Part shown: positions 26,310-46,359 of the stretch, one piece after another
Numbering within the stretch: position 1 is the stretch's first letter
Layout of the letters: every line of letters begins with the position of its first letter
Source of the DNA: Lachnotalea glycerini
Lineage (GTDB): Bacteria > Bacillota > Clostridia > Lachnospirales > Lachnospiraceae
Assembly: GCF_003201285.1 (NCBI RefSeq)
Contig: NZ_QICS01000001.1
Span: 272,678 to 336,677 of the forward strand
Length of the DNA: 64,000 bases
Direction: 5' to 3'
The notes under the pieces: generated by a model
The model's input: only the letters and a program-made list of their open reading frames with translations
Told to the model about the DNA's origin: nothing
The model's database searches: none
Translations under genes and position numbers: made by a program

Positions 26310-29300
26310 ATGATGCATTTAGATTATGAACAGGAAGTAAAACAAGTCTTAAAGTTGATAAAAAATAAGAAAATGTCTCCCCAGGAAGGAAAGCAAAAGA
26401 TAGAAAAACTCAGATATCAAAAAGAAAGTTCATTTTCAGAAGGGGTAGCTATTATAGGAATGTCCGGAAGGTTTCCTGGTGCAGATAATGTCAGTGATTT
26501 CTGGGATATTTTAAGCAATGGGAAAAACTGCATCACACAAGTGCCAAAAGAGCGATGGGATCATGATACCTATTATGACCCCGATGTAAAAAATTTAAAG
26601 AAAACAAATTCTCGCTTTGGAGGATTTATCAATGACATTGATAAATTTGACCCGCTCTTTTTCAATATATCAGGAATGGAAGCAGAGGTTATGGATCCGC
26701 AACAGCGCTTGTTTTTAGAAGAGAGTTATCATGCACTGGAACAGGCCGGATATGCCAATGATAAAGTATCCGGTGAAAAATGTGGCGTTTATGTTGCTGC
26801 GGCACCAAGAGATTATCTGACTCATTTGGAAGAAAAAAATATTGAAGGGAGCGCGCAGGCATTTTGGGGAAATACAGGCTCGATCTTAGCTTCCAGAATA
26901 TCGTACTATTTAAATTTGAAAGGACCGGCAATTTCTTTGGATACCGCTTGCTCCTCTTCCTTAGTCGCAGTGCATCTGGCATGTCAGGGAATTTTGTCAG
27001 GAGATGTTAAGATGGCTGTTGCCGGGGGGGCTTGGATTTGTACAACACAGCACTACTATATACTCACAAGTAATGCAGGGATGCTCTCCCCCGATGGGAA
27101 ATGTAAAACATTTGATGACAGAGCAGATGGAATTGTAAACGGGGAATGTGTGGGAGCAATTGTATTAAAATCCTTAAAAGATGCAGTCAAAGACCATGAT
27201 CACATACTTGGAGTCATCAAATCCTCTGGAATCAATCAGGATGGCAAAACAAATGGAATCACTGCTCCAAGTTCCTTGTCCCAGACAAAGTTAGAAATGG
27301 AAGTGTATGATAAGGCAGATATTAATCCGGAGACAATTTCATACATAGAGACGCATGGAACGGGAACGAAGCTTGGAGATCCGATTGAGGTTGAGGCATT
27401 AGACCGTGCATTTAAACAGTATACCAATAGGAAACATTTTTGTGCGCTGGGATCCGTAAAAACAAATATTGGACATGCTTCCCTTGCAGCAGGCATCGCA
27501 AGTGTTATAAAAGTTTTACTCGCATTAAAATATAAGAAAATACCCGCATTGTTAAATTTTGAAACGTTAAATGAGCATATTGACTTAAGCCAGAGCGCAT
27601 TTTATGTTAATACTGCTCTTACAGACTGGGAAGGCTTTGGACAGCCATTAAGGGCAGCAGTCAGCTCGTTTGGTCTGGGAGGTACGAACGCACATTTAGT
27701 AATTGAAGAATATACAAGAAATAAGCAGTCTGATGTAAAGAAAATGTTTTATCCGATTACCTTTTCAGCAAAAACAAGTGAAGCTCTCTATCATAGGATA
27801 AGAGAATTTGGAATTTGGCTGGAAGAAGATGGGAATATTTCTAAATTAGAGGACATTTCTTATACTTTGAATGTTTGCAGAGCACATATGGAAATTCGTG
27901 CGGGTTTTGTGGTAGAAAACCACCAGGAATTAAAACAGAAGATGGATGATTTTCTGAAAGCAGATGCCAAATATTCTAAAAAAACGGCTGACCCAAAAAA
28001 CAATGTAGAACTATCGAAGGTGCTAACAGAATTAAAAAGTTCATCTCTTTCAAGACAAGAGTACCAAGAAAAAGTCGTATGTTTAATGGAGTATTACCTG
28101 AGCGGTCATACGGTTGAATGGGAACAGTTATACAAAAAGGAGGACTGCTATAAAATACCTTTACCGGTATATCCGTTTAGCAAAGAATCCTACTGGATTT
28201 CCAAAATTGAAAAGGAGGAAGAAGTGATACTATCCGGAAACCAGTTGTATTCATTAATGGATGAAAACGTAATTCATTCTGAAGCTTCTTCTGGATATAG
28301 ATTAAATTATTATGAAACGCGATGGGTAAATCAGACGGATGATTTAAAAAAAGCACTGACATTCCATGAACCTGTTTTAGTATTTGCATATAAAACGCAG
28401 GATGCACTTCTTGATGAAATCAGACAAAGAAGCGAAAACATGGTAGTGATATACCCAGGTGATGCGTATCGGTATTTAGGAGATAATGAGTATGAAATTC
28501 ATAAGGATAATGAAAAGGAACTGTCTGTTGTATTAAATGAGTTAAAGGAACAAAATCTTTATCCTAAGAAAATTATATATTTATGGACATGGAAGAAATT
28601 TGATATAAATGAAAATACATTTGCAGAATGTGCTTATTCTATATTCCATTTACTGAAAAATCTTCATGCATTATATAGCAGAGAGTTAAAAGAAATAAAG
28701 GTATTATATCAGACAGAGGATGGGCAGATCAATCCGTATTTGGAGGCAATTGGAGCTTATAGCCAGTCACTGGGATATTTGTTTCCCGAGCTTTTATTCT
28801 CCACAATCCATTTAATAGGCAGCGATATTTCTGTGAATGATGTTATGACAGAGCTATATGATAAGTCAGCTAAGAAAGAAGTTCGGTATCAAAATGGAAC
28901 AAGATGGATTCAAAAAACAGATGCGATTACTTTAAAAAAAGAAAACGAAAATATTCTAAAGCAAAATGGGGTGTATCTGATTACTGGAGGAGCCGGTGGT
29001 CTTGGATTACTATTTGCAAGGTATTTGGCGGTTCATTATTCAGCCAGACTGATATTAATTGGTCGTTCTGCGTTATCGGAAGAGAAAAAAAAGATAGTAG
29101 AAGAATTTGACGAGCAAGGAGCCAAAGCCGTGTATTATCGAGCTGATGTTTCAGAACCAAAACAAATGGCAGCGGTGATAAAGAAAGCAGCAGAGATCTT
29201 TGGGCCAATTCAGGGTGTCATTCATGCGGCAGGAATTATGAGTGATAAACTAATCATACAAAAGGAGCAGAAGGATTTTGAACAAACAGTACAGGCAAAA

Positions 29301-32300
29301 ATAAAAGGATCTGTTGTATTAGACGAAGTTACAAAGGAGGAACCTCTTGATTTCTTTGTGCTCTTTTCCTCCACATCATCTATACTCGGTGATTTTGGAC
29401 AATGTGATTATTCGATTGGGAACCGATTTTTGGATAGTTATGCAAAGCACAGAAATGCATTAGTAAAGAAGAAGCAAAGAAACGGAAAAGCGATCACAAT
29501 CAACTGGCCTTTATGGCAGGAAGGTGGAATGCATGTTCAAAGGGATACAGAAACCCTTTACCTAAAAACATCCGTGATGGGATATCTTAAGACAGAAGAT
29601 GGATTGGAAGCATTCAGAAAAATCATGGAATCTGGAAAGGAACAGGTTATGGTTTTATATGGAGAGAAAGATAGAATCGATGCATCCATGGGAATTGAAA
29701 AGGGAGAGCTAACACATTCAGTTACAGAAAAATTTAATCAAGTAGATAAAAGTCTGCCCCATTGCATACAGGAAGACAAACCAATGGCAATTAATTTTCA
29801 GTCGGATATAAGAAAAATTGCTGCAGCTATTTTAAAAATCCGTCCGGAGCAAATGGAAACGGATACCAATGTAGCAGAATATGGTTTTGATTCCATATCA
29901 CTAAAGGTATATGCAGATAAAATATCAGAACAGTTCCAGATAGAGTTATTACCCACTGTTTTCTTTTCTGAAAATACAATAGAAAACTTAGCAAGTTACA
30001 TATTAAATGAGTACAAAGAAAAAATATTCAACTATTATGACAAAGAGAAGCAGGAAATAAAAGCAGTGGAGGTGAAAGGGCACAAGCAGCAAAGCGATTT
30101 AAAACCATTAAAGGAACAAATGTCATCCTTACAGCGTATTCCAATAGAAACACGAAACGTGCAGCAGAATAAAAAATATGAGCCAATTGCAATTATCGGT
30201 GTTACAGGAATGCTTCCAGGTTCTAAGGACTTGAATGAGTTTTGGACAAACTTAATGGATAGTAAAGATTTAATTACTGAAATTCCTTCCGACAGATGGG
30301 ACTGGCACAAATTTTACAGTAAAGATCAAGCAGAAAGAAATAAGTCGATTTCTAATTCTGGTGGATTCATAAGAGATGTTGATAAATTTGACGCATCATT
30401 TTTTAATATTTCACGCCGGGAAGCGGAATTAATGGACCCACAGCAAAGATTATTGTTGCAGTCAGTATGGAGTACAACAGAAGATGCAGGGTATAGAGCG
30501 TGTGACCTTGCCGGGAAAGACATAGGAGTTTTTATCGGATTTCAGTTCAGTGACTATCAGGAACTATTAATGGAAATAGGAGAAGCAAAACCACAAATAG
30601 CAACCGGAAATGCACATTCTTTGTTAGCAAATCGAATTTCCTATTTTATGAATTTTATGGGACCAAGTGAATCCATTGATACGGCGTGTTCCAGCAGTCT
30701 GGTAGCAATTCACAGAGCGGTAAAATCCATCCAAAGTGGAGAAAGCGAGATGGCATTTGCCGGGGGTGTCAGCCTGATGCTGTCACCGGGAGCTTTTCTA
30801 AGTGCCAGTAAATTAGGAATTTTGTCACCGAATAACAGGTGCAAAACCTTTGATAAGGATGCAGATGGCTATGTGAGAGGAGAAGGCGTAGGAACTCTTT
30901 TGTTAAAACCTTTAAGTAAAGCAATACTAGACAAAGATAATATCTATGCAGTGATTAAAGGCAGTGCACTAAACCACGGAGGCAGGGCAAATTCCCTGAC
31001 GGCACCAAATCCAGATGCACAAGCAAAGGTATTGGTAAAAGCTTATCAGGAAGCGGAGATTACGCCAGATACCATCGGCTATATTGAGGCACATGGTACG
31101 GGAACAGAATTAGGAGATCCCATCGAAATAGAAGGGTTAAAAAAGGCATTTAAAAAGCTATATAACATAAATGGGATGACAGAGCAAAAGGTAAATTATT
31201 GTGGGATTGGAGCGGTTAAAACAAACATCGGTCATTTGGAACCGGCGGCAGGTTTAGCGGGAATCATCAAAGTAATCTATGCACTAAAGCAGAAAGAAAT
31301 ACCTGCGACCATTCATTTAAATAATTTAAACCCATATATTAATCTGACCGATACGCCATTTTATATTGTAACAGAACCGACAAAGTGGGAAAAGCCAAGA
31401 GATCAAAACGGCGTAGAATTGCCACGTAAAGCCGGAGTCAGTTCCTTTGGTTTTGGTGGAGCAAATGCTCATGTAGTACTAGAAGAATATAATCAGCCTC
31501 TTTCTGAAAATACTAAGATTGAACCACAGATTATTATTCTCTCAGCAAAAAATCAGGAATGCTTAAGAGAGTATGCCATAAATTTGTTTGAATTTCTTGC
31601 GGCCAAGAACGATGCAAATAACAAGCCTGTTCATTTTTTAGATTTGGCATATACACTACAGTTTGGACGAGAGGCAATGCAATGGCGGCTGGCAATTGTG
31701 GCATCGAATCAAAATGAGCTGGAACAATATTTAAAAGCATTTATAGATGGAGAATCCGAGGAGGGAAGTCCTGTTTATTTCAATTATAAAAACATAGCAA
31801 AACATACGTTTGATCTGTTTGACCAAGATGACGATGCATACGCCATGATTTCGCAATGGATTGAAAAGAAAAAACTGGATAAACTGGCGAAACTATGGGT
31901 TTTGGGATACGAAATTGATTGGAACCATCTACATAAAGGTGAAACATACTTTAGAATTTCATTGCCCACCTATCCATTTAAAAAGGAACGTTTCTGGCTG
32001 GCGAAAGAGGGGAGCGAAAGAAGTAGATTTCAGGCAAATGAGTATGGTACTCTAATTGATTCTTTGGAATTTGATTTAAGCATGAAAGAAGGAATCGTAT
32101 TTAAAAAGGCAATGAATAACCAGTTAGATATGATAAGGGATCACATTATAAACGGCAAATCCGTTTTTCCGGGTGTTGGATACCTTGAAATGGTATATCA
32201 AGCCGCCTGTATTGTGAGAAAACATAAGAGAATCTCCTTCAAGCATATTTATTGGATGAACCCGCTTAGTTTAGATGAAAAAGAATGTGTGGTATTAGTG

Positions 32301-35300
32301 CGCATATCAAAGAAGGATGAGAAGCTAGTTTTTTGGATTTCAGATGAAGAAGAAAAGAAACTATATGCAAAGGGTGAACTCGATGAGAATCAAAGCGAAA
32401 CGCAAGAATTAGAAAAGGTTTCTATTGAATTGATAAAAAGCAGATGCCACAAGAAAGTTAGCAGCGAGGAAATTTATGAGCAATATGCTAGAAATGGAGT
32501 TTCCTATGGCTCGTTTTTCAAAGGAATCCAAGATGTTTATCAAAATAAGGAAGAAGCATTAGGAGAAATTCATTTAACCTCAGGACAAGATCTTAATTCC
32601 TATTCCTTACATCCGACTTTGTTGGATAGTGCATTGCAGGTGATCGGCTGTTTAAAAGAGTCGGGCAATCAAGTATTCGTACCATTTGCCGTAGACAAAA
32701 TTGAAATTTTCAGACCATTACAACCAGAAATGTATGCCTATGTACGCTCATCCGGCCATAATAGATATCATATAACAATCCTGGATGAGAATGGAAATGT
32801 ATGTGTAAGATTTAACGACTATACATTAGGGGAAGTAACAAATATAAGTGAAAAACTTTATTATGAACCGGTATGGGAGAAGAAAGCACTTACGTCAAAG
32901 GTGGAACAAAGGATAGAAGGAAAAGTCGGTATTGTGTATACCGGGGACAGTGAATGTCTGGCAAAAAGAATAGCAGCAAAATATGAGGATGCGGTAGAAA
33001 TTAAATTAGGTACGTGCAGCGGCCAGTCAGAAGGCAATCAGTACGAATTAAATGTAGAAAATGCATCCGATATCAGTCAACTGGTTAACTGTCTGCCTCC
33101 ATTAAATGGGATATATTTTTTAGGTGGAATTCAGAAAGATTCAAAGAATACAAACAACTATCAGGCAGTTGCCAAAAAACAGGAACAAGGGGTAATCAGT
33201 TTATTCCGTTTCATAAAGGAAATAGGTAATAGCTCCAAATTTGGTGGGCTTGGTGATTTAAAAATAGTGACAAATAATGTGTATCCTGTTGCAGGCAGCA
33301 ATGTGGTATTGCCGGTAGCTGCCCAAATAATAGGATTTGTCAAGTCTTTTGCAAAAGAGTATCCCAAAATAAGAGTAACTTCTGTGGATCTCGACTTGCC
33401 AGACTTATATCATACTTTTTCAGATGAGGAATTTGATGCATTGATACAGCCAATTTTTATGGAGGAAAGTAATGAAAATGGAGAAACGGTTGTATACCGG
33501 AATAACGAACGGTATGTTCGGACATTGAAGCCAATTAAATTGACTGGTAATGAAAAAAGCGTTTTAAAAGAACACGGTATTTATATGATCATTGGCGGAA
33601 CAGGGGGAATCGGGATTGTATTAAGCAAATATTTAAGCCATGCCTATAAAGCAAACTTGATTTTAGTAGGCAGAAGCAGTCTGACAATGGAACAATCAGA
33701 ACGATTAATGGAGATTGAGAAAGAAGGCGGTAAGGCTTATTACTATCAGGCAGATGTTACAGATGCAGATGGGATAAGAGAAGTTGTAAGTAAAGTAAAA
33801 CATCAGTTTGGCAGAATGAATGGTGTGTTTCATTCAGCAATTGTATCAAAAGATAAAACCATTCAAACTATGTCAGAAGATAATTTTCGTGCAGCACTTG
33901 ATCCAAAGGTAATAGGAAGTGAGGTATTGTTTCACATATTGAAAGAGGAGCCGTTGGATTTCATGGCATTTTTTTCATCAACCTCTTCCATTGCAGGTAT
34001 GCCGGGACAATGTAATTATGTCAGTGGACTTAATTTTGAAGACAGCTTTGCTTCTTATATTCAACCCAGAGTCTCTTATCCGGTAAAGATATTTTACTGG
34101 GGGTACTGGGGACTGGGTTCTAGTGAAGATAAGGAATATGGAAAATATCTTAAGATGCAGGGGATAGATAAGATTAGCGTAGAGGAAGGAATTCAGACAC
34201 TGGAAAAGGTATTAAATAGTTCCTATCATCAGGTATTTATACTAAAAGCAGAGGAAAGCGTCTATCAGAAGCTTGGCATCTATGAAGTAGATGAAGTCCC
34301 AAGTCAGAAGAATCAGATACAAATGACTACTGCTGAAACAATCATACAGGAAAGAGAGTTAACAATCAAAGATACCGTTGGTTCTGAAAAGGATCGGTTA
34401 AAAGAATTTTTAAAAGATAGGATAGCAACGCTGTTAAAAGATGAAAAAGACAGTATTGAGGATGAAACACTCTTTTCGGATATGGGTATTGACTCTTTAT
34501 TAGGATTGGAATTTCATGCAAATCTTGAAAAAAGCTTTGGAGAGCTTCCAACTTCACTGCTCTTTGAACATACAAATGTCAAATCCTTAGTCAAATATCT
34601 ATTAGAGAATAAAAAGGAAAAAGTCAAAGAAATATTAATGGAACCGATGAAGGATAATAATCGTATTAATATGTTTTCCTATCGTACTAAGAAACAAGAA
34701 GAGTTACAAAAGGAGGAGTCACTTGGAGTTTTAAAGGAGAAACCCAAAAATGTAGACCTTCCGATAGAACTTGAGAGCTTTATGGTGGAACTGGATTCAG
34801 GTACTAAAATAGAAGTGAGTGTGAAAGGAACGAAAGATCCTGTTTTAATCATTCCCGGTTTCGCTGTAAATTCTGTTATCGATATTTATCAGATAAGAGA
34901 TTTGTCAGAGGATTATCAGGTGATTTCAATTAACCTTCCGGGCCACGCAAAAAGTGATATTATTGAAGATTTATCACTAAAAGGCATGAGCCGTATGATG
35001 ATACAAGTCATGGACAAGCTCAATATTATAAAACCATTTCACGTTATTGGCGGTTCATTTGGTGGCATGATTGCCCAAAGTATTGCAAAAGAATTTCCAG
35101 AACGAATAAAAACACTTACCTTACTAGGAAGTTTTACCCTGTCAAAGTTTGAGGGAGTGACGAAATACTTTTCATTTATCGAGACAGTTTCCAATGATTT
35201 TGAAATTGTTAGAAAAAATACAACATCAGAAGAAATCAAACAGAACATAGATTATTGTCTCAATTTATATAAAATTAGTCAGGAAACAAATACAGCTTTG

Positions 35301-35555
35301 CTGATGAAGTATCTGGATTTAATGAAACAGGGCATGACAACGAGTCATATTTTAAGCCAGATAAAAGTGCCAACGTTAATCATGGCAGGTGAACTGGATT
35401 CTGTTGTAGATCCACAAGAATCCAAAATGATTCATGAAGGGATTGAATACTCCAAATATATAAAAATTGAGGACGGGGGGCATTTTATAAATTTAACACA
35501 CCATAAAAAGGTAAACGAAACGGTAAAAGAATTTCTGGAACAATTTGACACATAA
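26310..35555 (+). CDS. Terminal trans-AT PKS: KS-KR-ACP-KS-DH-KR-ACP-TE
   Basis: A 3081-residue protein that ends the assembly line. Residues 1-40 form the docking helices that receive the previous protein. KS6 (Cys214 in DTACSSS; the usual EAHGTGT reads ETHGTGT) is followed by a KR (TGGAGGLG near 892, FSS/Tyr/Asn intact) and an ACP (Ser1195, GFDSI). KS7 (Cys1460) leads a DH (His1945 in HIINGKSVFP, HPTLLDSALQ later), a KR (IGGTGGIG near 2429; NYVSGLNF lacks the usual Asn) and an ACP (Ser2729, GIDSL). The C-terminal alpha/beta hydrolase thioesterase has nucleophile Ser2916 in GGSFGG, a probable catalytic Asp in AGELDSVVD and His3058 in GGHF. Predicted chemistry is a beta-hydroxyl, then an alpha,beta-alkene next to the released carboxyl. 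Release by hydrolysis or lactonisation cannot be told from sequence. AAGGAG precedes ATGATG. Confidence 0.96.
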   Translation: MMHLDYEQEVKQVLKLIKNKKMSPQEGKQKIEKLRYQKESSFSEGVAIIGMSGRFPGADNVSDFWDILSNGKNCITQVPKERWDHDTYYDPDVKNLKKTNSRFGGFINDIDKFDPLFFNISGMEAEVMDPQQRLFLEESYHALEQAGYANDKVSGEKCGVYVAAAPRDYLTHLEEKNIEGSAQAFWGNTGSILASRISYYLNLKGPAISLDTACSSSLVAVHLACQGILSGDVKMAVAGGAWICTTQHYYILTSNAGMLSPDGKCKTFDDRADGIVNGECVGAIVLKSLKDAVKDHDHILGVIKSSGINQDGKTNGITAPSSLSQTKLEMEVYDKADINPETISYIETHGTGTKLGDPIEVEALDRAFKQYTNRKHFCALGSVKTNIGHASLAAGIASVIKVLLALKYKKIPALLNFETLNEHIDLSQSAFYVNTALTDWEGFGQPLRAAVSSFGLGGTNAHLVIEEYTRNKQSDVKKMFYPITFSAKTSEALYHRIREFGIWLEEDGNISKLEDISYTLNVCRAHMEIRAGFVVENHQELKQKMDDFLKADAKYSKKTADPKNNVELSKVLTELKSSSLSRQEYQEKVVCLMEYYLSGHTVEWEQLYKKEDCYKIPLPVYPFSKESYWISKIEKEEEVILSGNQLYSLMDENVIHSEASSGYRLNYYETRWVNQTDDLKKALTFHEPVLVFAYKTQDALLDEIRQRSENMVVIYPGDAYRYLGDNEYEIHKDNEKELSVVLNELKEQNLYPKKIIYLWTWKKFDINENTFAECAYSIFHLLKNLHALYSRELKEIKVLYQTEDGQINPYLEAIGAYSQSLGYLFPELLFSTIHLIGSDISVNDVMTELYDKSAKKEVRYQNGTRWIQKTDAITLKKENENILKQNGVYLITGGAGGLGLLFARYLAVHYSARLILIGRSALSEEKKKIVEEFDEQGAKAVYYRADVSEPKQMAAVIKKAAEIFGPIQGVIHAAGIMSDKLIIQKEQKDFEQTVQAKIKGSVVLDEVTKEEPLDFFVLFSSTSSILGDFGQCDYSIGNRFLDSYAKHRNALVKKKQRNGKAITINWPLWQEGGMHVQRDTETLYLKTSVMGYLKTEDGLEAFRKIMESGKEQVMVLYGEKDRIDASMGIEKGELTHSVTEKFNQVDKSLPHCIQEDKPMAINFQSDIRKIAAAILKIRPEQMETDTNVAEYGFDSISLKVYADKISEQFQIELLPTVFFSENTIENLASYILNEYKEKIFNYYDKEKQEIKAVEVKGHKQQSDLKPLKEQMSSLQRIPIETRNVQQNKKYEPIAIIGVTGMLPGSKDLNEFWTNLMDSKDLITEIPSDRWDWHKFYSKDQAERNKSISNSGGFIRDVDKFDASFFNISRREAELMDPQQRLLLQSVWSTTEDAGYRACDLAGKDIGVFIGFQFSDYQELLMEIGEAKPQIATGNAHSLLANRISYFMNFMGPSESIDTACSSSLVAIHRAVKSIQSGESEMAFAGGVSLMLSPGAFLSASKLGILSPNNRCKTFDKDADGYVRGEGVGTLLLKPLSKAILDKDNIYAVIKGSALNHGGRANSLTAPNPDAQAKVLVKAYQEAEITPDTIGYIEAHGTGTELGDPIEIEGLKKAFKKLYNINGMTEQKVNYCGIGAVKTNIGHLEPAAGLAGIIKVIYALKQKEIPATIHLNNLNPYINLTDTPFYIVTEPTKWEKPRDQNGVELPRKAGVSSFGFGGANAHVVLEEYNQPLSENTKIEPQIIILSAKNQECLREYAINLFEFLAAKNDANNKPVHFLDLAYTLQFGREAMQWRLAIVASNQNELEQYLKAFIDGESEEGSPVYFNYKNIAKHTFDLFDQDDDAYAMISQWIEKKKLDKLAKLWVLGYEIDWNHLHKGETYFRISLPTYPFKKERFWLAKEGSERSRFQANEYGTLIDSLEFDLSMKEGIVFKKAMNNQLDMIRDHIINGKSVFPGVGYLEMVYQAACIVRKHKRISFKHIYWMNPLSLDEKECVVLVRISKKDEKLVFWISDEEEKKLYAKGELDENQSETQELEKVSIELIKSRCHKKVSSEEIYEQYARNGVSYGSFFKGIQDVYQNKEEALGEIHLTSGQDLNSYSLHPTLLDSALQVIGCLKESGNQVFVPFAVDKIEIFRPLQPEMYAYVRSSGHNRYHITILDENGNVCVRFNDYTLGEVTNISEKLYYEPVWEKKALTSKVEQRIEGKVGIVYTGDSECLAKRIAAKYEDAVEIKLGTCSGQSEGNQYELNVENASDISQLVNCLPPLNGIYFLGGIQKDSKNTNNYQAVAKKQEQGVISLFRFIKEIGNSSKFGGLGDLKIVTNNVYPVAGSNVVLPVAAQIIGFVKSFAKEYPKIRVTSVDLDLPDLYHTFSDEEFDALIQPIFMEESNENGETVVYRNNERYVRTLKPIKLTGNEKSVLKEHGIYMIIGGTGGIGIVLSKYLSHAYKANLILVGRSSLTMEQSERLMEIEKEGGKAYYYQADVTDADGIREVVSKVKHQFGRMNGVFHSAIVSKDKTIQTMSEDNFRAALDPKVIGSEVLFHILKEEPLDFMAFFSSTSSIAGMPGQCNYVSGLNFEDSFASYIQPRVSYPVKIFYWGYWGLGSSEDKEYGKYLKMQGIDKISVEEGIQTLEKVLNSSYHQVFILKAEESVYQKLGIYEVDEVPSQKNQIQMTTAETIIQERELTIKDTVGSEKDRLKEFLKDRIATLLKDEKDSIEDETLFSDMGIDSLLGLEFHANLEKSFGELPTSLLFEHTNVKSLVKYLLENKKEKVKEILMEPMKDNNRINMFSYRTKKQEELQKEESLGVLKEKPKNVDLPIELESFMVELDSGTKIEVSVKGTKDPVLIIPGFAVNSVIDIYQIRDLSEDYQVISINLPGHAKSDIIEDLSLKGMSRMMIQVMDKLNIIKPFHVIGGSFGGMIAQSIAKEFPERIKTLTLLGSFTLSKFEGVTKYFSFIETVSNDFEIVRKNTTSEEIKQNIDYCLNLYKISQETNTALLMKYLDLMKQGMTTSHILSQIKVPTLIMAGELDSVVDPQESKMIHEGIEYSKYIKIEDGGHFINLTHHKKVNETVKEFLEQFDT

Positions 35556-35581: not shown

Positions 35582-36439
35582 ATGCTGATTGATACGATAA
35601 AAGCCAAATGGGACAAACTATTGGAAGAAGGACTCATACATTTTTATCAGGAACAGAATAAAGAGATGATATGGAACGGTAAAACCATGACCTTTTGTAT
35701 GGAATATGTACCGGAACGGGCAAAACGTGTGGGATGCTATCAGGCAAGCACGCATCCTTTGGGGGATAACATAATAAACAGAGAAGACTGCCTTTATGAT
35801 TTTGGAGAATTGGCATTATTAGCCAATAACAGACCGGTTGAAAAATACCATAGTATCCTTTGTTCCAAATCCTTCATACCACAAAATGAGTTTACCAAGG
35901 ATGAGATTATGGCAGTATCAAAAATTGTAGAAGAGACTGGGATACGATCTTTTTTCAATATGCGTGGAACAGCCGCAACGTTAGAACATTTTCATACGCA
36001 GGTGTTATGGAATCAGTTTCATATAGAAAATTTAGTAAAAGTATCAATCGACGAAAATATAGGCTATTTGCCTGATTATCCGGTTGGAAATATTCTTTTC
36101 ACTGGTGAGCTTTCCAAAAGATGTGATCTGTTATTTGAAAAGCTGAAGCTGCTATCAGAGTCAAAACTTCCACTTACAGTTAAGGACGATGGCAATTTAA
36201 GCAAAACGCCGCTCTTTACCTTGCTTTTTTGGGAGAATAATATTCTTCTGATTCCACGAAAACAGGAAACCTCAAGTCGGATGAAGGCAATGGTGGGAGG
36301 GTTAGAATTAAGTGGGTATTTTCTGATCACCGCTCCGCTTGCAAGAGAAAATCCTTTTAAAGGTGTAGATGAGAAGTACCTGATTGAGATTATCAGAGAG
36401 GTTGCTTTTGAAAAAGAAGATATTAATTTTTTATACTAA
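35582..36439 (+). CDS. GalT/Ap4A-phosphorylase-like (HIT superfamily) nucleotidyl-transfer enzyme
   Basis: A 285-residue soluble protein, 26 nt after the TE gene, with AAGGAGG before the ATG. The key motif is EHFHTQVLW, an HxHxQ triad like that of galactose-1-phosphate uridylyltransferase and Ap4A/GDP-sugar phosphorylases, which use the second His as nucleotidyl carrier. An upstream run (SFFNMRGTAATLEHFH) fits the strand leading to the triad. The family assignment rests on this motif and the general layout; the substrate is unknown. Placed before a CofD-like protein and a HAD enzyme, and in the same cluster as an epimerase and a glycosyltransferase, it may activate a sugar 1-phosphate. A house-keeping nucleotide phosphorylase is the alternative. 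Confidence 0.7.
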   Translation: MLIDTIKAKWDKLLEEGLIHFYQEQNKEMIWNGKTMTFCMEYVPERAKRVGCYQASTHPLGDNIINREDCLYDFGELALLANNRPVEKYHSILCSKSFIPQNEFTKDEIMAVSKIVEETGIRSFFNMRGTAATLEHFHTQVLWNQFHIENLVKVSIDENIGYLPDYPVGNILFTGELSKRCDLLFEKLKLLSESKLPLTVKDDGNLSKTPLFTLLFWENNILLIPRKQETSSRMKAMVGGLELSGYFLITAPLARENPFKGVDEKYLIEIIREVAFEKEDINFLY

Positions 36440-36461
36440 GAACTTTATCATAAGGAATGCA

Positions 36462-36493
36462 AAGTACCGCATTTTTGTGCAAAAATGTTACTT
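36462..36493. other. Intergenic hairpin between GalT-like and CofD-like genes
   Basis: AAGTA-CCG-CATTTTT and AAAAATG-T-TACTT arms face each other around a GTGC loop in the 167-bp gap, with a small bulge. No T-run follows. The rest of the gap holds no ORF with a start and site; the next gene's AAAGGAGG is at its end. A processing or attenuation role is possible. Confidence 0.4.
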
Positions 36494-36606
36494 CAAAGCC
36501 GTAAGGCATAATGGTAACAGGATTCTAATTATAAAGGAATGTCAAGGCTCTATGAAATAGGTGCCAAGGATTCCAAGAGCTCATAAGAAAAAAGGAGGAA
36601 AATATT

Positions 36607-37863
36607 ATGCTAGAGGTTGTTATTTTTTCAGGTGGAAGAGGTTCTAAAGCATTTGTGAAAGAATTGCTAAAGGATGAGTCAATTAAATTATCATTAATCG
36701 TTAATTCCTATGACGATGGGAAATCCACTGGTGAGATCCGAAGATTTTTTAATATGCTTGGCCCATCTGATATAAGAAAAAATCAGGAAAATTTAATGTC
36801 AAGTAACTTTGAATTATATAAGATGTGGTCTGAAATTTTTGCATTTCGATTTCCAAAGGATGTTCAATATAATCACTGCATATCTGTTATGCAGGCTTTT
36901 GCAGACGGTAAAACCAATATGATAGAGGAAATACAGATTGATGAGCCTAATTTGGTACAGTTGTTGAGAAAAATTATAGAACAATTTTTGACTTCACTGA
37001 AAACATATGAAAAAATAATTGGAAGAAAATTTAATTTTAGTGACTGTTCCTTGTCTAATTGTTTGTATGCAGGAGCTTTTGAACTTTTGGATAAAAGCTT
37101 TTACAAAACAATTGCGTTGTTTAATGTTTTATTACATACGCGTGGCGATGTCATACCAACAAACTTAGAAAATAAAAAACTGGTAGCAATACGTGAAAAT
37201 GGAGAAATATGCTATACCGAGGATATTATCGTAGAATTGCGTTCCAATGACAGAATTAAAGATTTATTTTTACTAGATAAAGATCTTGATCCAACGCTCA
37301 TTGAAAAGAAATTTACAACGCTAGAAGAAAAAAGTGATTATCTTCACAGAATTGAAAGCTACGTACATGGAACACCGGAATCTATCAAAGCAATTGAAAA
37401 TGCGGATATTATTATTTATGCACCCGGAACACAGCATTCATCCTTATATCCAAGTTACACAACAATTGGAATTCCGGAAGCAATCTATTCGAACAAGAAA
37501 GCTTTAAAAGCGTTTGTATGTAATATAGGTGAAGATTATGAGACTCCGGGATATGAAGCCAGTGAGTTTATAACAAGCGCATACAAATATTTAACAAAGA
37601 ATTGTAAATATAAAATTCCTATTTCAGAGCTTATTCATGTAGCCTTAGTGAATACGTCCCGTTCCCAGCAAAAAGAAGATTTTCGATATGTAGAAAATGA
37701 TTTTCAAAAACTTGAAGAATTACCAGTTGAGATTTTATGTGGAAATTTTGAATCCAACTCAGATTTGGGAAAGCATGATGCTCATAAAGCAATAAAGACC
37801 ATCGAAGAAGCCTATTATAAGAAATTTTATAAGAATTTTTACAATGAAACCAATAAGTATTAA
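36607..37863 (+). CDS. CofD/YvcK superfamily protein
   Basis: A 418-residue protein with an AAAAGGAGG site. The N-terminal loop IFSGGRGSKAF, then NSYDDGKSTGEIRR and GPSDIRKNQ, match the signature blocks of the CofD (2-phospho-L-lactate transferase) and YvcK (UDP-sugar binding, cell-wall metabolism) superfamily, where the DD pair and the PGDIR-type loop bind the phosphate substrate. A later block, IIYAPGTQHSSLYPS, corresponds to the second superfamily motif. It is about 100 residues longer than typical CofD or YvcK, so it is probably a distinct subfamily. No F420 biosynthesis gene is visible, so a CofD role in cofactor F420 is unlikely. The stop overlaps the start of the HAD gene by 20 nt. Function in polyketide tailoring or nucleotide-sugar handling is inference. 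Confidence 0.75.
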   Translation: MLEVVIFSGGRGSKAFVKELLKDESIKLSLIVNSYDDGKSTGEIRRFFNMLGPSDIRKNQENLMSSNFELYKMWSEIFAFRFPKDVQYNHCISVMQAFADGKTNMIEEIQIDEPNLVQLLRKIIEQFLTSLKTYEKIIGRKFNFSDCSLSNCLYAGAFELLDKSFYKTIALFNVLLHTRGDVIPTNLENKKLVAIRENGEICYTEDIIVELRSNDRIKDLFLLDKDLDPTLIEKKFTTLEEKSDYLHRIESYVHGTPESIKAIENADIIIYAPGTQHSSLYPSYTTIGIPEAIYSNKKALKAFVCNIGEDYETPGYEASEFITSAYKYLTKNCKYKIPISELIHVALVNTSRSQQKEDFRYVENDFQKLEELPVEILCGNFESNSDLGKHDAHKAIKTIEEAYYKKFYKNFYNETNKY

Positions 37864-38491
37864 TAAAAAATGTGCTATTTTTGATTTCGATGGGACAATT
37901 GCAGATACAAACAGCATTCATGCAAAAGCATTTCAAATGGTTTTTGAATTATTATATATTGATAATTTTCATTATGAAGAGTATATGGGGCGAAAGACAA
38001 TAGAGGTTTTTAAAGATTTTTTTCATACACATAATCTGAACTATTCTGAAGACAAAATCGTTCAGATGGTAAAGCTAAAGCAATCGTTAGCAAGAGAACT
38101 AATGCTGACGCAGTTAGTAAGCTATGATGGAGCAATTAGTTTTTTAAAATTACTAAAGCAGAAAGGAAAAATTTTAGTTTTGGCTACGTCATCATCTAGA
38201 GAAGGGGTCAGTGTAGGACTTAAAAAATTAGGAATCTATGAACAATTCGATTATATACTGACAGGCGATGATGTCAAAATGGCTAAACCTGATCCAGAGA
38301 TTTTTTTGAAATCACTACAACTTGTAAATGTAAAGGCAGATGAGGCAGTAGTGATTGAGGATTCATTAAGCGGTGCGTTAGCCGCACAGCGTGCAAACAT
38401 AGAAGTTATAATCGTAAATAATCGTAAAATGGGAAAAAGTTATTATTTTACCAGTTATTCAAAGCTGATAAATGAACTGATTCACTTGTAA
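37844..38491 (+). CDS. HAD superfamily hydrolase, beta-phosphoglucomutase-like
   Basis: A 215-residue protein. It has all HAD motifs: DFDGTIAD with Asp14 nucleophile and Asp16, ATSSSR (motif II), KMAKPDP with the Lys, and VVIEDSLSG (motif IV). A helical cap follows motif I, as in the beta-phosphoglucomutase/phosphatase group; phosphatase and mutase cannot be separated by eye. It starts inside the end of the CofD-like gene with little ribosome binding site, so translation is probably coupled. It may make or consume the sugar phosphate used by the GalT-like enzyme at 35582. Confidence 0.85.
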   Translation: MKPISINKKCAIFDFDGTIADTNSIHAKAFQMVFELLYIDNFHYEEYMGRKTIEVFKDFFHTHNLNYSEDKIVQMVKLKQSLARELMLTQLVSYDGAISFLKLLKQKGKILVLATSSSREGVSVGLKKLGIYEQFDYILTGDDVKMAKPDPEIFLKSLQLVNVKADEAVVIEDSLSGALAAQRANIEVIIVNNRKMGKSYYFTSYSKLINELIHL

Positions 38492-38553: not shown

Positions 38554-38587
38554 GTAAACTTAAAAAATCTTAGGGGGAATGTACTCA

Positions 38588-39553
38588 GTGAAAAGAAACA
38601 TAGTCTTTATGTATTCGGGACAAGGTTCTCAATATAAAAATATGGGACTTGATTTATATTATTCGGAACCCATCTTTCAATACTGGATGAATCAATTAGA
38701 TCAATATTTTATTAAATTCATAGGGAGTTCCGTGTTTGACCTGTTGTATGGGGATAAAGGAAAAAAAGAAAGTAATACATTAACACATACTCATCTTGCC
38801 ATTTTTATGGTCGAATATGCTGTTACCCAGGTTTTATTTAAACACGGAATCTATCCGGACTCTATCGTTGGTGTAAGTCTGGGTGAATTAACTGCATCCG
38901 CTGTAAACAATCGAATCAGTCTTTTAGAATGCATGGAAATGATCTATGAACAGGCACATATCATTACCAAATCATGTTCAAAAGCCAGAATGCTATCCAT
39001 TCTGGCTGATTCACAATTGTATCATTGTTCCAAAGAATTATATCTAAATTCTGAAATCGTTTCGAATAATTTTAAGGATAACTTTACAATAGCATTTCCA
39101 GAAGAGAAAGAAAAAGTAATTTATAATTTTTTAAAAATGAATCAGATTACGTACGTACCACTGGCAGTTGAATATGGATTCCACTCCTCCCTGATAGACG
39201 ATGGGAGAGAGCCATACCAGAAATACCTTGCCAAGAGGAATATAACATGGAATGAAAAGATACGATATAAACAGTATTCAAGTGCCTTGGTGGATCAATT
39301 AGATGATTTTTCAATGGATTATTTCTGGAAAGTAGTAAGAATGCCAATTGATTTTCAAAATACAGTGAAAAAGGCAATTGATAGAAATTACATTAACATT
39401 TTGGTGGATCTTGGTCCAAGCGGTACATTAGCTACTTCCTGCAAATATATATTTAATGAAGAAAATATATTGCCATATACTATTTTATCACCTTATGGAG
39501 GGGCGATGAAACATCTGGATTTATTATATAAGGAATTAGACATGCAGAAATAG
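38588..39553 (+). CDS. Free-standing acyltransferase homologue, probable acyl-ACP hydrolase
   Basis: A 321-residue FabD-fold protein. MKRNIVFMYSGQGSQ is the typical opening of trans-acting AT proteins; the GTG at 38588 is preferred because AGGGGG lies 10 nt before it but only 1 nt before the ATG at 38579. The nucleophile motif is GVSLGE (Ser97) rather than GHSLGE, and the catalytic His is His199 in EYGFHS. At the position of the FabD Arg117 that binds the malonyl carboxylate (25 residues after the Ser) there is Gln122 (MIYEQAHII). Loss of this Arg is a feature of the PedC/PksD acyl hydrolase group, which cleaves stalled acyl chains off ACPs, so proofreading is more likely than malonyl loading. 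A malonyl-specific AT is not seen in the window and would have to be encoded elsewhere. Confidence 0.85.
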   Translation: MKRNIVFMYSGQGSQYKNMGLDLYYSEPIFQYWMNQLDQYFIKFIGSSVFDLLYGDKGKKESNTLTHTHLAIFMVEYAVTQVLFKHGIYPDSIVGVSLGELTASAVNNRISLLECMEMIYEQAHIITKSCSKARMLSILADSQLYHCSKELYLNSEIVSNNFKDNFTIAFPEEKEKVIYNFLKMNQITYVPLAVEYGFHSSLIDDGREPYQKYLAKRNITWNEKIRYKQYSSALVDQLDDFSMDYFWKVVRMPIDFQNTVKKAIDRNYINILVDLGPSGTLATSCKYIFNEENILPYTILSPYGGAMKHLDLLYKELDMQK

Positions 39554-41196: not shown

Positions 41197-42105
41197 TTGA
41201 AGGAAATTATGGTTGTTACAGGAGGAGCAGGATTTATTGGAAGCCATCTATCACAGAAGCTGTTGAATTTAGGATATATTGTAAGAATTATAGACAACTT
41301 ATGTCAGGGCAATCCAGATTATATCCCAGATGGAGCAGAATTTTATGAGGGTAATGTTTTAGATAAGGACTTGCTTAAAAAAGTTTTTACAGGAGCAAAA
41401 GGCGTTTTTCATATGGCAGCAATGAGTAAAGTAGCGCCATCCATCGAAAAAATTGAGTATTGTACGGAACAAAATGTGTTAGGAACATTGAATGTTTTAT
41501 TAATGGCCAGAGAATGTAAAGTACAAAAAGTAGTATATAGTGCCTCTTCAAGCTATTACGGAAACAGACAGGCACCACAAAATGAGGAAATGCTTCCAGA
41601 TCCATTAAATCCCTATGCACTGTCTAAATACGTTGGTGAGCAGTATTGTGAATTGTATACGGTTTTATATGGACTTCCAACAATCAGTCTGCGTTATTTT
41701 AATGTTTACGGAAGGAGGCAGCCATCAGAAGGTGCTTATGCATTGGTACTAGGTATTTTTCTAAAGAATCTAAAAGAAGGCAAGCCACTCCTTATTCATG
41801 GAAAAGGAGAACAGCGTCGTGATTTTATTCATGTAAGTGATATTGTAGAGGCTAATATCGCAGCCTTTAAAAGTGAAGCCAAAGGCATGGTTCTAAATGT
41901 AGGAAGCGGTAAGAATATATCCATTCAGGAACTAGCCGATTTAATTTCGAAAGATCAAATTTATGAGCCAAGACGTGCAGGGGATGCAGAAATTACACTG
42001 GCAGATATATCAAAAACAAAAGCAATTCTTAACTGGGTACCAAAAGTGTCAATTGAAGAGGGAATTCAGCAAATGATAGATGATACACGAAATGGTTATC
42101 TTTAA
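41197..42105 (+). CDS. NAD-dependent sugar-nucleotide epimerase/dehydratase
   Basis: A 302-residue short-chain (extended SDR) enzyme with the NAD loop TGGAGFIGSH at 8-17, an SSSYYG stretch carrying the active serine, and Tyr140/Lys144 of the YxxxK pair (NPYALSKYVGE). It resembles UDP-glucose 4-epimerase and related UDP- or dTDP-hexose enzymes. The TTG at 41197 is chosen because AAGGAGG ends 7 nt before it, whereas the first ATG (41209) is 19 nt away. It leads an operon with a glycosyltransferase, so it likely shapes the sugar donor for the polyketide. The exact sugar is not predictable. Confidence 0.9.
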   Translation: MKEIMVVTGGAGFIGSHLSQKLLNLGYIVRIIDNLCQGNPDYIPDGAEFYEGNVLDKDLLKKVFTGAKGVFHMAAMSKVAPSIEKIEYCTEQNVLGTLNVLLMARECKVQKVVYSASSSYYGNRQAPQNEEMLPDPLNPYALSKYVGEQYCELYTVLYGLPTISLRYFNVYGRRQPSEGAYALVLGIFLKNLKEGKPLLIHGKGEQRRDFIHVSDIVEANIAAFKSEAKGMVLNVGSGKNISIQELADLISKDQIYEPRRAGDAEITLADISKTKAILNWVPKVSIEEGIQQMIDDTRNGYL

Positions 42106-42136: not shown

Positions 42137-43393
42137 ATGGCAAAAATTGAAATTGTTGTTATCGGAACGCATGGGGAGGTAAGACCTTTGCTTGCTTTAG
42201 GAGTTGCCCTAAGAGATGCCGGACATGATGTGATTCTATGTGCTCCACCAAATGAAGAAAAGTGGATTCAAAGCTATGGCTTTAAATTTTATTCTGCAGG
42301 ATGTGATGTTTATCAGCTAATTAATGGCTTAAATAAATATATGGGGCATCCCATTGAGTTATTAAAAGCAGTTAAGGCTACTTTAGAAAATATTATCTGC
42401 GGTCAGTTTGAGTTGGTCAAAGAGGCAAGTGAAGGGGTTGATTTGATCATAGGAGGGGGAGAACCTTTCGCAGCACCTTCCATTGCAAAATATTTAAATG
42501 TACCATATATTTTTGTGAATTTAGTTACGCAATTTATGCCATCGAATCATTATCCACCAACTGTAATACCATGGCAGAATATGCCCAGATTTATGAACAC
42601 AATTGCTTGGAAACTGGTTAATTCTCTCATTAATCTGTCTTTGATAAAAAAGATAAATGAAAATAGAATAAAGTTAGGTTTAGATAAAATAAAGGATTTT
42701 TACGACTATTTTTTAAATAATATAGCTCTTTGTATTATAGCAATATGCCCTTATTTAGATGTATCACCGAAGTATAAGTTTAAGTATATTCAGACAGGAT
42801 TGTGGCAGATTCCAGAAGTTAAGGAAGAGGAACTAGAGCCGGGACTGGAAGTATTTTTAAAAAGCGGACCGCCCCCAGTATATTTTGGATTTGGAAGTAT
42901 GAGTGATTCAAATCCAAAAGAGACGATTAAGATTATTAATGAGACAATTAAAACACTTAAAATAAGGGCGTTAGTATCAAAGGGCTGGGCAGAATTAAGT
43001 GAAGATTTTGATTTCAAGGATGTCTATATGGTTGGTTTTGTTGAACATAGCAAATTATTTCCAAGAGTATCTTGTGTGGTTCATCATGGAGGACCCGGAA
43101 CAGTATACACCGCAGCTCATGCAGGGGTACCACAGGTAATCGTACCTCATATGCTGGATCACTATTATCAGGGTGATTTGCTCTATAAAAAGAAATTAAC
43201 ACCCAAAGCAATTAATCGTTCCAAGCTGACAAGCAAAAAGCTAACTCGGGCAATTCATGAGGCTATTACGAATCAAGAGTATATAGAAAATAATAAAAGG
43301 CTTGGTATACAGCTTCGCAAGGTGGATCAAGAATGTATTAAGAAAGCGGTAGAATCTGTTAATAAAGTGTTAAAAGACAAAGGATTGAGTTAA
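42137..43393 (+). CDS. GT1 (MGT/UGT-type) glycosyltransferase
   Basis: A 418-residue GT-B fold enzyme. The N-terminal acceptor half opens with EIVVIGTHGEVRPLLALG, as in sterol and macrolide glycosyltransferases. The C-terminal half has PPPVYFGFGSM and the donor-binding block VVHHGGPGTVYTAAHAGVPQ near residue 315, followed by DHYYQ. No signal peptide is seen; it should act in the cytoplasm on the polyketide or a late intermediate, using a nucleotide sugar. It sits between the epimerase and the beta-branching genes. A self-resistance role by inactivating glycosylation, as known for some macrolides, is also possible. Confidence 0.9.
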   Translation: MAKIEIVVIGTHGEVRPLLALGVALRDAGHDVILCAPPNEEKWIQSYGFKFYSAGCDVYQLINGLNKYMGHPIELLKAVKATLENIICGQFELVKEASEGVDLIIGGGEPFAAPSIAKYLNVPYIFVNLVTQFMPSNHYPPTVIPWQNMPRFMNTIAWKLVNSLINLSLIKKINENRIKLGLDKIKDFYDYFLNNIALCIIAICPYLDVSPKYKFKYIQTGLWQIPEVKEEELEPGLEVFLKSGPPPVYFGFGSMSDSNPKETIKIINETIKTLKIRALVSKGWAELSEDFDFKDVYMVGFVEHSKLFPRVSCVVHHGGPGTVYTAAHAGVPQVIVPHMLDHYYQGDLLYKKKLTPKAINRSKLTSKKLTRAIHEAITNQEYIENNKRLGIQLRKVDQECIKKAVESVNKVLKDKGLS

Positions 43394-43405: not shown

Positions 43406-44170
43406 ATGGATTACCATACATTACGGGTACGTTATGAAGAACAGGTATGCTATATACAGTTTTATCGCCCAGAAGCCAATAATACAATTAACTACAGGAT
43501 GGTTATAGAATTATCAGAAGTTTTGAAAGAGTGTGATACGTCAGCTTCTATTATAATTTTAGAAGGACTTTCAGATGTTTTTTGCTTTGGAGCTGATTTT
43601 CAAGGAATTCATGATGATATGACCAGTCACACAGAGTCTGAGAACAACCCTAAGCTTTTGTATGAGCTGTGGCTTAAACTAGTTTATGGCCCTTATATAA
43701 CGATTGCTCATGTTCGTGGAAAAGCAAATGCAGGAGGCGTTGGATTTGTAGCTGCTTGCGATATTGTTCTGGCAGATTGTACCGCTTCCTTTTGTTTGTC
43801 AGAATTACTCTTTGGATTATATCCGGCATGTGTATTACCGTTTCTTATTCAAAGGATTGGATATCAAAAAGCAAACTATATGACACTTATGACACAGTCG
43901 ATCGGAGTAGAAACAGCATATGAGTGGGAACTGGTCGATGCTTATGATAAAAATAGTGAATCTTTATTAAGAAAGCACTTGCTTCGCTTGAAACGTTTAC
44001 AAAAGTCAGCTATTAAGCAATATAAAAGCTATATAAGCCAGTTACGTCCAAACTTGTATCAAGAGAAAGAAATGGCAGTCCAGGCAAATGTAGATTTGTT
44101 TAAAGATCGTCAAATCAGGGAATGGATTTATCAGTTTGAAGAGTATGGAAAATTTCCCTGGGATAAATAA
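43406..44170 (+). CDS. pksH: PksH-type enoyl-CoA hydratase (ECH1) of the beta-branching cassette
   Basis: A 254-residue crotonase-fold protein. FCFGADFQGI and AHVRGKANAGGVGFVAACDIVLAD are the characteristic blocks of PksH/BaeH, which dehydrates the HMG-ACP-like intermediate bound to the synthase. It starts 12 nt after the glycosyltransferase gene with TAGGAG, and is followed by the HMG synthase. Its decarboxylating partner (ECH2) is not a separate gene but the domain fused to the KS at 11342-16390. Confidence 0.88.
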   Translation: MDYHTLRVRYEEQVCYIQFYRPEANNTINYRMVIELSEVLKECDTSASIIILEGLSDVFCFGADFQGIHDDMTSHTESENNPKLLYELWLKLVYGPYITIAHVRGKANAGGVGFVAACDIVLADCTASFCLSELLFGLYPACVLPFLIQRIGYQKANYMTLMTQSIGVETAYEWELVDAYDKNSESLLRKHLLRLKRLQKSAIKQYKSYISQLRPNLYQEKEMAVQANVDLFKDRQIREWIYQFEEYGKFPWDK

Positions 44171-44235
44171 TGAAAAGGAAATATATCAATAAAGCTAAAA
44201 AATAGTTATAAAAATACTTATAAGAAGGTGAAGAT

Positions 44236-45495
44236 ATGTTAAACGTTGGTATAGAAGCAATTAACTTTTTTGGAGGAACCGCATTCCTTAATGTCAGACA
44301 TTTGGCAGAATATCGTAAGCTTGATACAACCCGATTTGAAAACTTATTAATGAAAGAAAAATCCGTTATACTACCATATGAAGATCCAGTAACATTAGGT
44401 GTCAATGCGGCAAAACCGATTATTGATTCTTTATCGGAAGAAGAAAAAAACAAAATTGAGCTTTTAATTACCTGTACTGAATCAGGAATTGATTTTGGAA
44501 AGTCTTTAAGTACTTACGTACACGACTATTTGGGATTGAACAGGCATTGTCGCCTTATGGAAATAAAAAATGCCTGCTATTCAGGAACAGCCGGGTTTCA
44601 AATGGCAGTAAATTTTATCTTATCTCAAAGCTCTCCCGGTGCCAAAGCACTTGTTATTGCAAGTGATCTTGCAAGATTTATGACAGTTGATGCTGGTGAA
44701 GTGCTGACTGAGGATTGGTCATTTGCAGAACCAAGCTCCGGAGCAGGAGCCGCGGCTATCCTAGTGAGTGAAAAACCTTATGTGTTTCAAGTGGATATAG
44801 GAGCGAATGGTTATTACGGATATGAAGTAATGGATACTTGCCGTCCTGTACCGGATAATGAAGCCGGTAATTCGGACTTGTCATTGCTTTCTTATCTGGA
44901 TTGCTGCGAGCAGGCATATCTACATTATCAGTCAAAAGTAGAGAATGCAGACTATCAAAAGACATTTGATTATATCGCTTATCATACTCCGTTTGGAGGA
45001 ATGGTAAAGGGAGTACATCGGACAATGATGAGAAAGATGGTAAAAGCAAAACCAGCAGAAATAGAAAAAGATTTTAAAGAAAGAGTGACACCTGGTATGA
45101 CGTTTTGTCAGCGAGTTGGAAATGTAATGGGAGCAACGGTTTTTCTATCCTTATTGAGTACCATTCATAATGGAAATTTTGAACAACCAAAACGAATTGG
45201 ATGCTTTAGCTATGGTTCTGGTTGCTGTTGTGAATTTTACAGTGGTGTGGTCACCCAAAAGGGAAAGGATATTATACTGGGATATGATGTGGATAGTCAG
45301 TTGAGCCAGCGTTATCGGCTTTCTATTGAGGAGTATAATAAATTACTGATGCAAAGCAATTTCATACCATTTGGAACGCGTAATTGTATTATGAATTTTG
45401 ATTTAATTCCGGGTATTATGGAATCAATGAAAGGAAAGAATCGTTTATATTTAACTGAGATAAAAGAATTTCACAGAGAGTATCAGTGGATATAA
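44236..45495 (+). CDS. pksG: HMG-CoA synthase homologue of the beta-branching cassette
   Basis: A 419-residue thiolase-fold enzyme of the PksG/CurD group. The acyl-carrying Cys114 lies in KNACYSG, the acid/base Glu82 in TCTESGID, and the active His in AYHTPFGG. It condenses an acetyl unit from a donor ACP with a beta-keto acyl-ACP, starting a beta-branch. AAGGTGAAG precedes the ATG. The cassette members seen are this gene, the ECH1 gene just before it and the ECH2 domain in the PKS. The donor ACP and the KS-like malonyl decarboxylase are absent here and are probably upstream of the window. Confidence 0.93.
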   Translation: MLNVGIEAINFFGGTAFLNVRHLAEYRKLDTTRFENLLMKEKSVILPYEDPVTLGVNAAKPIIDSLSEEEKNKIELLITCTESGIDFGKSLSTYVHDYLGLNRHCRLMEIKNACYSGTAGFQMAVNFILSQSSPGAKALVIASDLARFMTVDAGEVLTEDWSFAEPSSGAGAAAILVSEKPYVFQVDIGANGYYGYEVMDTCRPVPDNEAGNSDLSLLSYLDCCEQAYLHYQSKVENADYQKTFDYIAYHTPFGGMVKGVHRTMMRKMVKAKPAEIEKDFKERVTPGMTFCQRVGNVMGATVFLSLLSTIHNGNFEQPKRIGCFSYGSGCCCEFYSGVVTQKGKDIILGYDVDSQLSQRYRLSIEEYNKLLMQSNFIPFGTRNCIMNFDLIPGIMESMKGKNRLYLTEIKEFHREYQWI

Positions 45496-46146: not shown

Positions 46147-46359
46147 TTATAATAATGCATAAAAGTTATTACATACAATATAGAGTCAGGACAATTAATG
46201 TCCTATTTGAATAAAATATTTACTTTATTATAGAAGAAGAAAAGCAGTTTGTAGTATTTCGAATGAGGAAAAATCAGAAAAACTTATTCCATTTTATTTA
46301 GAAACTTGTCTTAGTAGATGAGCTTTTAAATATAGGGATTTATATAACAAAAATTTTTA
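46147..46359. other. Non-coding stretch after agrB, no clear agrD
   Basis: This is where agrD is normally found. The only starts give short peptides: 11 codons from 46198 (MSYLNKIFTLL, then TAG) and 12 codons from 46263. A longer open frame at 46213-46321 has no ATG, GTG or TTG. It would follow from the first peptide only by a frameshift, so a decayed agrD is possible but unproven. Confidence 0.4.

Follow-up and report, generated by a model that had tools for sequence, protein, structure and literature searches.

A trio of phosphate-chemistry genes in a trans-acyltransferase polyketide cluster of Lachnotalea glycerini, and the sugar donor it may make

Lachnotalea glycerini carries a polyketide synthase (PKS) cluster on contig NZ_QICS01000001.1 (assembly GCF_003201285.1), and three small genes within it are the subject of this article. 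We analyzed a stretch of 64,000 nucleotides of the contig (positions 272,678 to 336,677), called the window from here on, in which the trio occupies positions 35582–38491 on the forward strand. All three open reading frames (ORFs) are intact. They follow the last PKS gene (26310–35555, forward strand), the C terminus of which looks like an alpha/beta-hydrolase of the thioesterase (TE) type as read by eye from the translation, without a Pfam scan, and they precede a free-standing acyltransferase (AT) gene. An original prediction, made from the sequence, had put three genes between a PKS TE gene and an AT-like gene, two of them overlapping, and that is what is there: ORF2 and ORF3 share 20 bp, and a gap of 167 bp separates ORF1 from ORF2. 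The cluster is of the trans-AT type, since the AT domain is absent from all four PKS proteins scanned and the ATs are free-standing. A nucleotidyltransferase, a protein from one particular clade of the CofD superfamily and a HAD protein recur together elsewhere with other partner families, mostly near a glycosyltransferase (GT). We put at about even the chance that the cluster's own GT (42137–43393, forward strand), which is of the EryCIII/UDPGT type (PF06722, E 5.4e-15), receives from the trio a sugar of an unusual kind, nucleotide-activated or phospho-substituted.

The three proteins

ORF2 (36607–37863, forward strand, 418 amino acids) belongs to the CofD superfamily, matching PF01933 with 123.6 bits (cut-off 30, E 1.1e-35). 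It falls below the curated cut-offs of two narrower families, YvcK (TIGR01826, 122.8 bits against 196) and the GAK-system CofD (TIGR04357, 114.2 against 340). Its AlphaFold2 model (pLDDT 83.7, pTM 0.84), compared with solved structures by Foldseek, finds the YvcK-type 2hzb first (E 8.5e-19), then F420 CofD 3cgw (2.7e-9) and FbiA (1.6e-8). Both F420 enzymes fall within the 18 structures matched at E <= 0.001, with 12–14% identity in the structural alignments, and they are not the closest, at TMt 0.53–0.62 versus 0.71–0.79 for the YvcK type. A sequence search of the PDB likewise puts the YvcK/UPF0052 proteins, which bind UDP-GlcNAc, at the top.

In a FastTree phylogeny of 24 proteins, ORF2 groups with three orthologues, eight CofD–HAD fusions (L021–L028) and a protein from Acaryochloris in a clade with support of 0.998, and a Sinorhizobium protein forms the next branch beside it (0.971). 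The clade is set apart from ten proteins labeled YvcK by neighborhood or by similarity, eight of which came from matches in phylum genomes (L007 and L011 were left out, and L013 yielded no protein). Three motifs, NxYDxGxSTG (around N33–D36), GPSD[IL]RKNQ and GTQxSSLxP[ST]Y, are present with slight variants in all 13 clade members and in none of the ten YvcK-labeled proteins; some viral members outside the tree vary more, with GVSDIRKNH or GPSDVRKQQ. Judged by its sequence, then, ORF2 is a member of a separate clade, which we call GPSD-RKNQ, and is neither an F420 CofD nor a YvcK. By motif comparison, its invariant Asp36 and Asp55 may be the counterparts of the two metal-holding aspartates of the F420 enzymes, Asp45 and Asp57 in FbiA.

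The original prediction had found neither F420 synthesis nor cell-wall control supported, and we agree. ORF2 as query (E <= 0.001) finds only itself in the window's genome, and in each of the three genomes that host the orthologues PF01933 matches a single protein, that of the trio. With one CofD-family protein in each of these four genomes, no YvcK is seen in any of them. Neither rapZ nor whiA, which flank a YvcK example in another locus, adjoins ORF2, the neighbors of which are PKS, ORF1, ORF3 and AT genes. A house-keeping YvcK or F420 role was accordingly rejected on profile cut-offs, tree and single-copy occurrence; the search for F420 genes was confined to CofD. ORF2 is also rare. At E <= 1e-30 it has a match in one of 391 class genomes, its own, and at 1e-12 in 23 of 398 phylum genomes, the 22 others being YvcK-like at ~47–55 bits. 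Its four plasmid matches comprise the Acaryochloris clade member, one annotated YvcK and two in unannotated records.

ORF3 (37844–38491, forward strand, 215 amino acids) is a HAD protein of subfamily IA. It matches HAD_2 with 124.2 bits (cut-off 23.8, E 8.3e-36) and TIGR01509 with 68.7 bits (cut-off 29.4), and it has the DxD nucleophile motif as FDFDGT. The original prediction had likened it to beta-phosphoglucomutase (beta-PGM). The HAD family stands and the closer label does not: ORF3 scores 101.4 bits against the beta-PGM model TIGR01990, below its cut-off of 189.4, and its best PDB match is the TM_1254 phosphatase 3kbb (E 5.1e-18), with beta-PGMs ranking lower. The Arg and Ser of the beta-PGM cap motif GxSRxxSL have a functional role. 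Opposite GISRMESL of 4gib, ORF3 has GRKTIEVF, and all four trio members have GRKTxEVF in this position; a beta-PGM-like protein in L066 has GISRLESL. By these sequence criteria ORF3 is beta-PGM-like at the level of the superfamily only.

ORF1 (35582–36439, forward strand, 285 amino acids) was the third family named in the original prediction, as an HxHxQ nucleotidyl-transfer enzyme, and here the assignment comes by way of a weak model. The motif, HFHTQ, is invariant in all four trio members. Pfam and NCBIfam model scans return no family, and no solved PDB chain gives a significant sequence match, the four weak ones being ferritins. An AlphaFold2 model built from the four sequences is of low confidence (pLDDT 54, pTM 0.61). 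At E <= 0.001 it retrieves seven PDB chains, six of the yeast Ap4A phosphorylase Apa2 (best E 2.3e-7) and one of a DUF4931 protein. From E 0.007 upward the list continues with GalT-like, GALT and HINT structures and also contains a spliceosome chain. Motif and fold matches together point, with fair but not full certainty, to a nucleotidyltransferase-like member of the HIT/GalT superfamily, which ORF1 resembles in its HxHxQ motif and, as far as the weak model goes, in its best fold matches, and from which it differs in lacking a Pfam family and a significant match to solved chains. Relatives are scarce. They were found in one of 98 relatives and, with a profile, in one of 196 class genomes, each time the window's own genome, and none turned up in plasmids, in viral contigs, in the genome collection searched by peptide pattern or in the 28 fusion loci described below.

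Where the genes recur

Scanning a genome collection with ORF2 and one cyanobacterial relative as queries gave ten loci. The scan reaches exact short peptide patterns only, so further trios may exist, and pattern searches and sampled genomes in general undercount relatives. Three of the ten loci hold the same trio in the same order: L018 (Clostridium sp. KNHs205), L019 (an Anaerocolumna metagenome-assembled genome, MAG) and L020 (Anaerocolumna sp. AGMB13025). In each, the last PKS gene precedes the trio and a run of GT, ECH and HMG-CoA-synthase-like (HCS) genes follows it, the latter two of the beta-branching type and behind the GT in all four clusters (43406–45495, forward strand, in the window). 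Identity between the window and these loci is ~53% for ORF1, 69–70% for ORF2, ~55% for ORF3, 63.5–65% for the GT, 60–61% for ECH and 72% for HCS. ORF1 and ORF2 share 7 bp in L018 and L019 and are 14 bp apart in L020; the 20-bp overlap of ORF2 and ORF3 is kept in all three. In two of the relatives, the upstream parts match as well (carboxylase-subunit-like genes, an AT protein, a KS-like protein and PKS modules, labeled by eye except for the AT, PF00698), so the whole clusters are homologous. Passages of PMC7930024 mention that MAGs, those of Anaerocolumna included, have trans-AT PKS architectures of a distinct kind, and give no detail on these genes.

Among the three relatives, the ratio of nonsynonymous to synonymous substitution (dN/dS) is 0.17–0.25 for ORF1, 0.014–0.029 for ORF2 and 0.09–0.20 for ORF3, with the GT (0.059–0.066) and HCS (0.044–0.059) for comparison; in comparisons with the window, dS has reached saturation for almost every pair. 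ORF2, with the lowest values, is under the strongest constraint among these five genes. The shared order in three other genomes and these ratios mean that the trio is not a chance arrangement. Trio, EryCIII-type GT and PKS genes occur together in four of four clusters, the window counted, and the searches we ran saw no wide conservation of it outside biosynthetic clusters. The window's GT has relatives in one class genome of 391 besides its own, at ~41% and 33% identity in stretches that lack the trio; a close GT without the trio was not seen among the 391. Nor did we find, in the literature searched, a paper joining CofD with trans-AT synthases; the original prediction knew of no described role for this trio in polyketide synthesis. 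An article that turned up for CofD and polyketide clusters, PMC11104420, is on F420 in the passages concerned.

The other seven loci of the scan are of a different build. Here the clade protein, at 26–31% identity, is ~590–620 amino acids long, because in all seven the CofD domain is followed by a C-terminal HAD-like domain with a DxDGT motif. Every fusion adjoins a gene for a protein of ~245–275 amino acids, and the seven can be aligned as one nucleotidyltransferase family. Pfam finds CofD in five of the five fusions scanned and a HAD family in four (none in L024), and it finds the MobA-like family PF12804 in all three partners scanned. On the HAD part, the NCBIfam matches are to HAD-IIB or Cof types, all below cut-off, and the best solved match is the alpha-phosphoglucomutase 4bnd (E 4.5e-11, C-terminal half only). 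Six of the seven stretches contain a GT2-like group (by BLAST grouping; the one neighbor scanned with Pfam is a GT2), and we labeled these loci glycan-type by eye. They share with the trio the CofD clade, the three activities and, mostly, a GT nearby. They differ in that the trio consists of three separate genes in a PKS setting, with a HIT-type rather than a MobA-type partner and a HAD-IA rather than a HAD-IIB-like domain. The fusion profile at 1e-40 matched none of 391 class genomes, which says little because no genome in that set is known to match. A CofD and nucleotidyltransferase pair is also on record for M. fermentans (PMC11658790). The clade also has a member without a HAD domain, a protein of 365 amino acids on the Acaryochloris marina plasmid pREC4 (L003:11983-13080).

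Viruses hold the third setting. Searching viral contigs with patterns from the fusion profile gave 20 loci, and in 13 cases the contig is > 80 kb long; three pairs have identical fusion proteins, which makes 17 distinct loci, 13 with a glucosyltransferase, and one locus, L059, is on the same contig as L028 of the tree. The D-x-D-[DG]-T motif of the HAD part is kept in 20 of 20. So is the nucleotidyltransferase partner, overlapping the fusion or within 13 bp of it in 19 loci and 1.2 kb downstream in one; the partner matches are weak for L047–L049 (E 1e-13 to 7e-10), and that of L055 comes from an iterated profile only. In 16 of the 20 contigs a T4-type DNA beta-glucosyltransferase gene precedes the fusion, at a distance of up to 1.6 kb and in the same orientation (PF09198 in all six scanned). 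L053 has, in its place, TET-associated glycosyltransferases (TAGT) on both sides of the fusion, which brings the contigs with either type to 17 of 20, and thymidylate-synthase-like genes are found in the flanks of eight. This company of glucosyltransferases and thymidylate-synthase-like genes suggests that the DNA base made in contigs L041–L060 is hypermodified and bears a sugar. A search of 50,697 phage records gave one match to the fusion, an uncultured phage of 462 kb (LR756500.1), with its nucleotidyltransferase 1.2 kb away.

What the trio might make

Nucleotidyltransferases are exchanged between these settings (HIT or MobA type), as are the HAD proteins (HAD-IA or HAD-IIB-like), and this exchange of partners around one CofD clade indicates a functional unit. 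GT families and acceptors differ from setting to setting, the final acceptors probably being a polyketide, a glycan and DNA, and the CofD protein is homologous throughout. What is shared is thus more likely a donor than an acceptor: the conserved CofD protein would act on a common small molecule. We infer the product, the order of the steps and the chemistry, the exact CofD step included, as follows. ORF3 would make or trim a sugar phosphate, to which ORF1 would add a nucleotide. ORF2 would then use the nucleoside-diphospho intermediate by letting a hydroxyl attack its beta-phosphate, by analogy with F420 CofD, and so yield an unusual activated or phospho-substituted sugar. The cluster's GT, linked to the trio by gene neighborhood, would attach that sugar to the polyketide. 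The original prediction had offered two outcomes, an unusual nucleotide sugar or a phospho-group on the polyketide. The contexts of the clade favor the first and make the second less probable, since outside PKS clusters it is mostly HAD-fused, accompanied by a different nucleotidyltransferase and often near GTs; this falls short of proof.

Several points weigh against a donor-making role, the first being that it does not account for how CofD chemistry would lead to a glycosyl donor. The fold of ORF1 depends on a low-confidence model. GTs are common in PKS and glycan-type clusters anyway, and the window's GT is 3.6 kb away from the trio. The Acaryochloris member has no annotated nucleotidyltransferase or HAD gene within 12 kb. 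Among the viral loci, a beta-glucosyltransferase is missing from the flanks of L041, L042 and L060, where the systematic search covered this GT type alone (the one L060 neighbor scanned has no Pfam family), and the flanks of LR756500.1 contain no match to the glucosyltransferase of L028. The M. fermentans record otherwise fits a donor role, but two pseudogenes are reported there in place of an intact CofD gene, and glucofuranan is made all the same (PMC11658790); with its gene broken, CofD may be dispensable.

The main rival takes the F420 precedent at its word. ORF1 would make a nucleoside-diphospho-X, with X a phospho-acid, glycerol or a sugar, ORF2 would move P-X to a hydroxyl of the polyketide or its sugar, and ORF3 would remove a terminal phosphate, so that the product would bear a phosphodiester. 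Such direct decoration matches the steps of CofC and CofD/FbiA (FbiD/FbiA) in F420 synthesis, where, according to passages of PMC7253369, a hydroxyl attacks the beta-phosphate of a nucleoside-diphospho compound and two Asp hold the metal. Like that pathway, the trio pairs a nucleotidyltransferase-like protein with a PF01933 protein of CofD/FbiA fold, a phosphotransferase in the F420 case. CofC itself is probably a MobA-like enzyme, as are the partners of the fusions. Unlike it, the trio has a HIT-type and a HAD partner, and its three host relatives lack any other PF01933 protein. The fold of ORF2 is closer to the YvcK type than to F420 CofD, and a clade common to settings with probably unlike acceptors is better accommodated by a common small-molecule substrate. 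We regard direct decoration as rather unlikely, though it is the strongest of the alternatives.

That closest solved structures are YvcK/UPF0052 proteins suggests something else again, that ORF2 is a sugar-nucleotide sensor regulating carbon flow or wall synthesis, its position in the cluster being incidental. The missed TIGR01826 cut-off, the separate clade with motifs of its own, the lack of a rapZ–yvcK–whiA context and the linkage to ORF1 and ORF3 in four of four clusters make this very improbable. Nucleotide salvage can involve HIT-type and HAD proteins, and the window's GT resembles the rifamycin-inactivating Rgt (157.4 bits, cut-off 800), but a self-protection or salvage set, phosphorylating or nucleotidylating a compound in the cell, for example, instead of tailoring it, has equally slim prospects given that the CofD clade, nucleotidyltransferase and HAD recur in viral and glycan-type loci.

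The donor-making reading can be carried one step further, and here we are more tentative, holding it at somewhat below even chances: CofD clade, nucleotidyltransferase and HAD would constitute an undescribed glycosyl-donor route that has been recruited three times, for polyketides, bacterial glycans and phage DNA, with partners in the PKS lineage of types unrelated to the others. The CofD-fold enzymes already known are the F420 phosphotransferases and the YvcK regulators. If the idea is right, activated sugars or sugar phosphodiesters would have a new biosynthetic route, and the clade could be used both as a reporter gene for glycosylated natural products of an unusual kind and to track down DNA modifications in phages that are still unknown. 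With its small size and its presence in related clusters of named strains, the PKS trio lends itself to direct tests of its chemistry.

Further genes around the trio

The free-standing AT behind the trio (38579–39553, forward strand; PF00698, E 3.9e-29) is not part of it. This AT is an extra one, in addition to the AT upstream of the PKS. Flavodoxin-like and TetR genes follow on the opposite strand, and then come a gene for a GalE-like NAD-dependent sugar epimerase (41197–42105, forward strand; PF01370, E 2.4e-60), the GT, ECH and the HCS-like gene. Neither the AT nor the GalE-like gene has a match in the 21-kb stretches of L018–L020. After the cluster, at 45547–48717, lie genes for an AgrB-like protein, a LytTR response regulator and a GHKL kinase, perhaps a peptide quorum-sensing control. 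A second biosynthetic-looking region (L033) is found 20–40 kb upstream of the window on the same contig; it encodes an 816-amino-acid PPDK_N and PEP-utiliser protein, a HAD protein, two B12-binding radical SAM proteins and an NHL protein, and two genes near it are transporter-like by eye.

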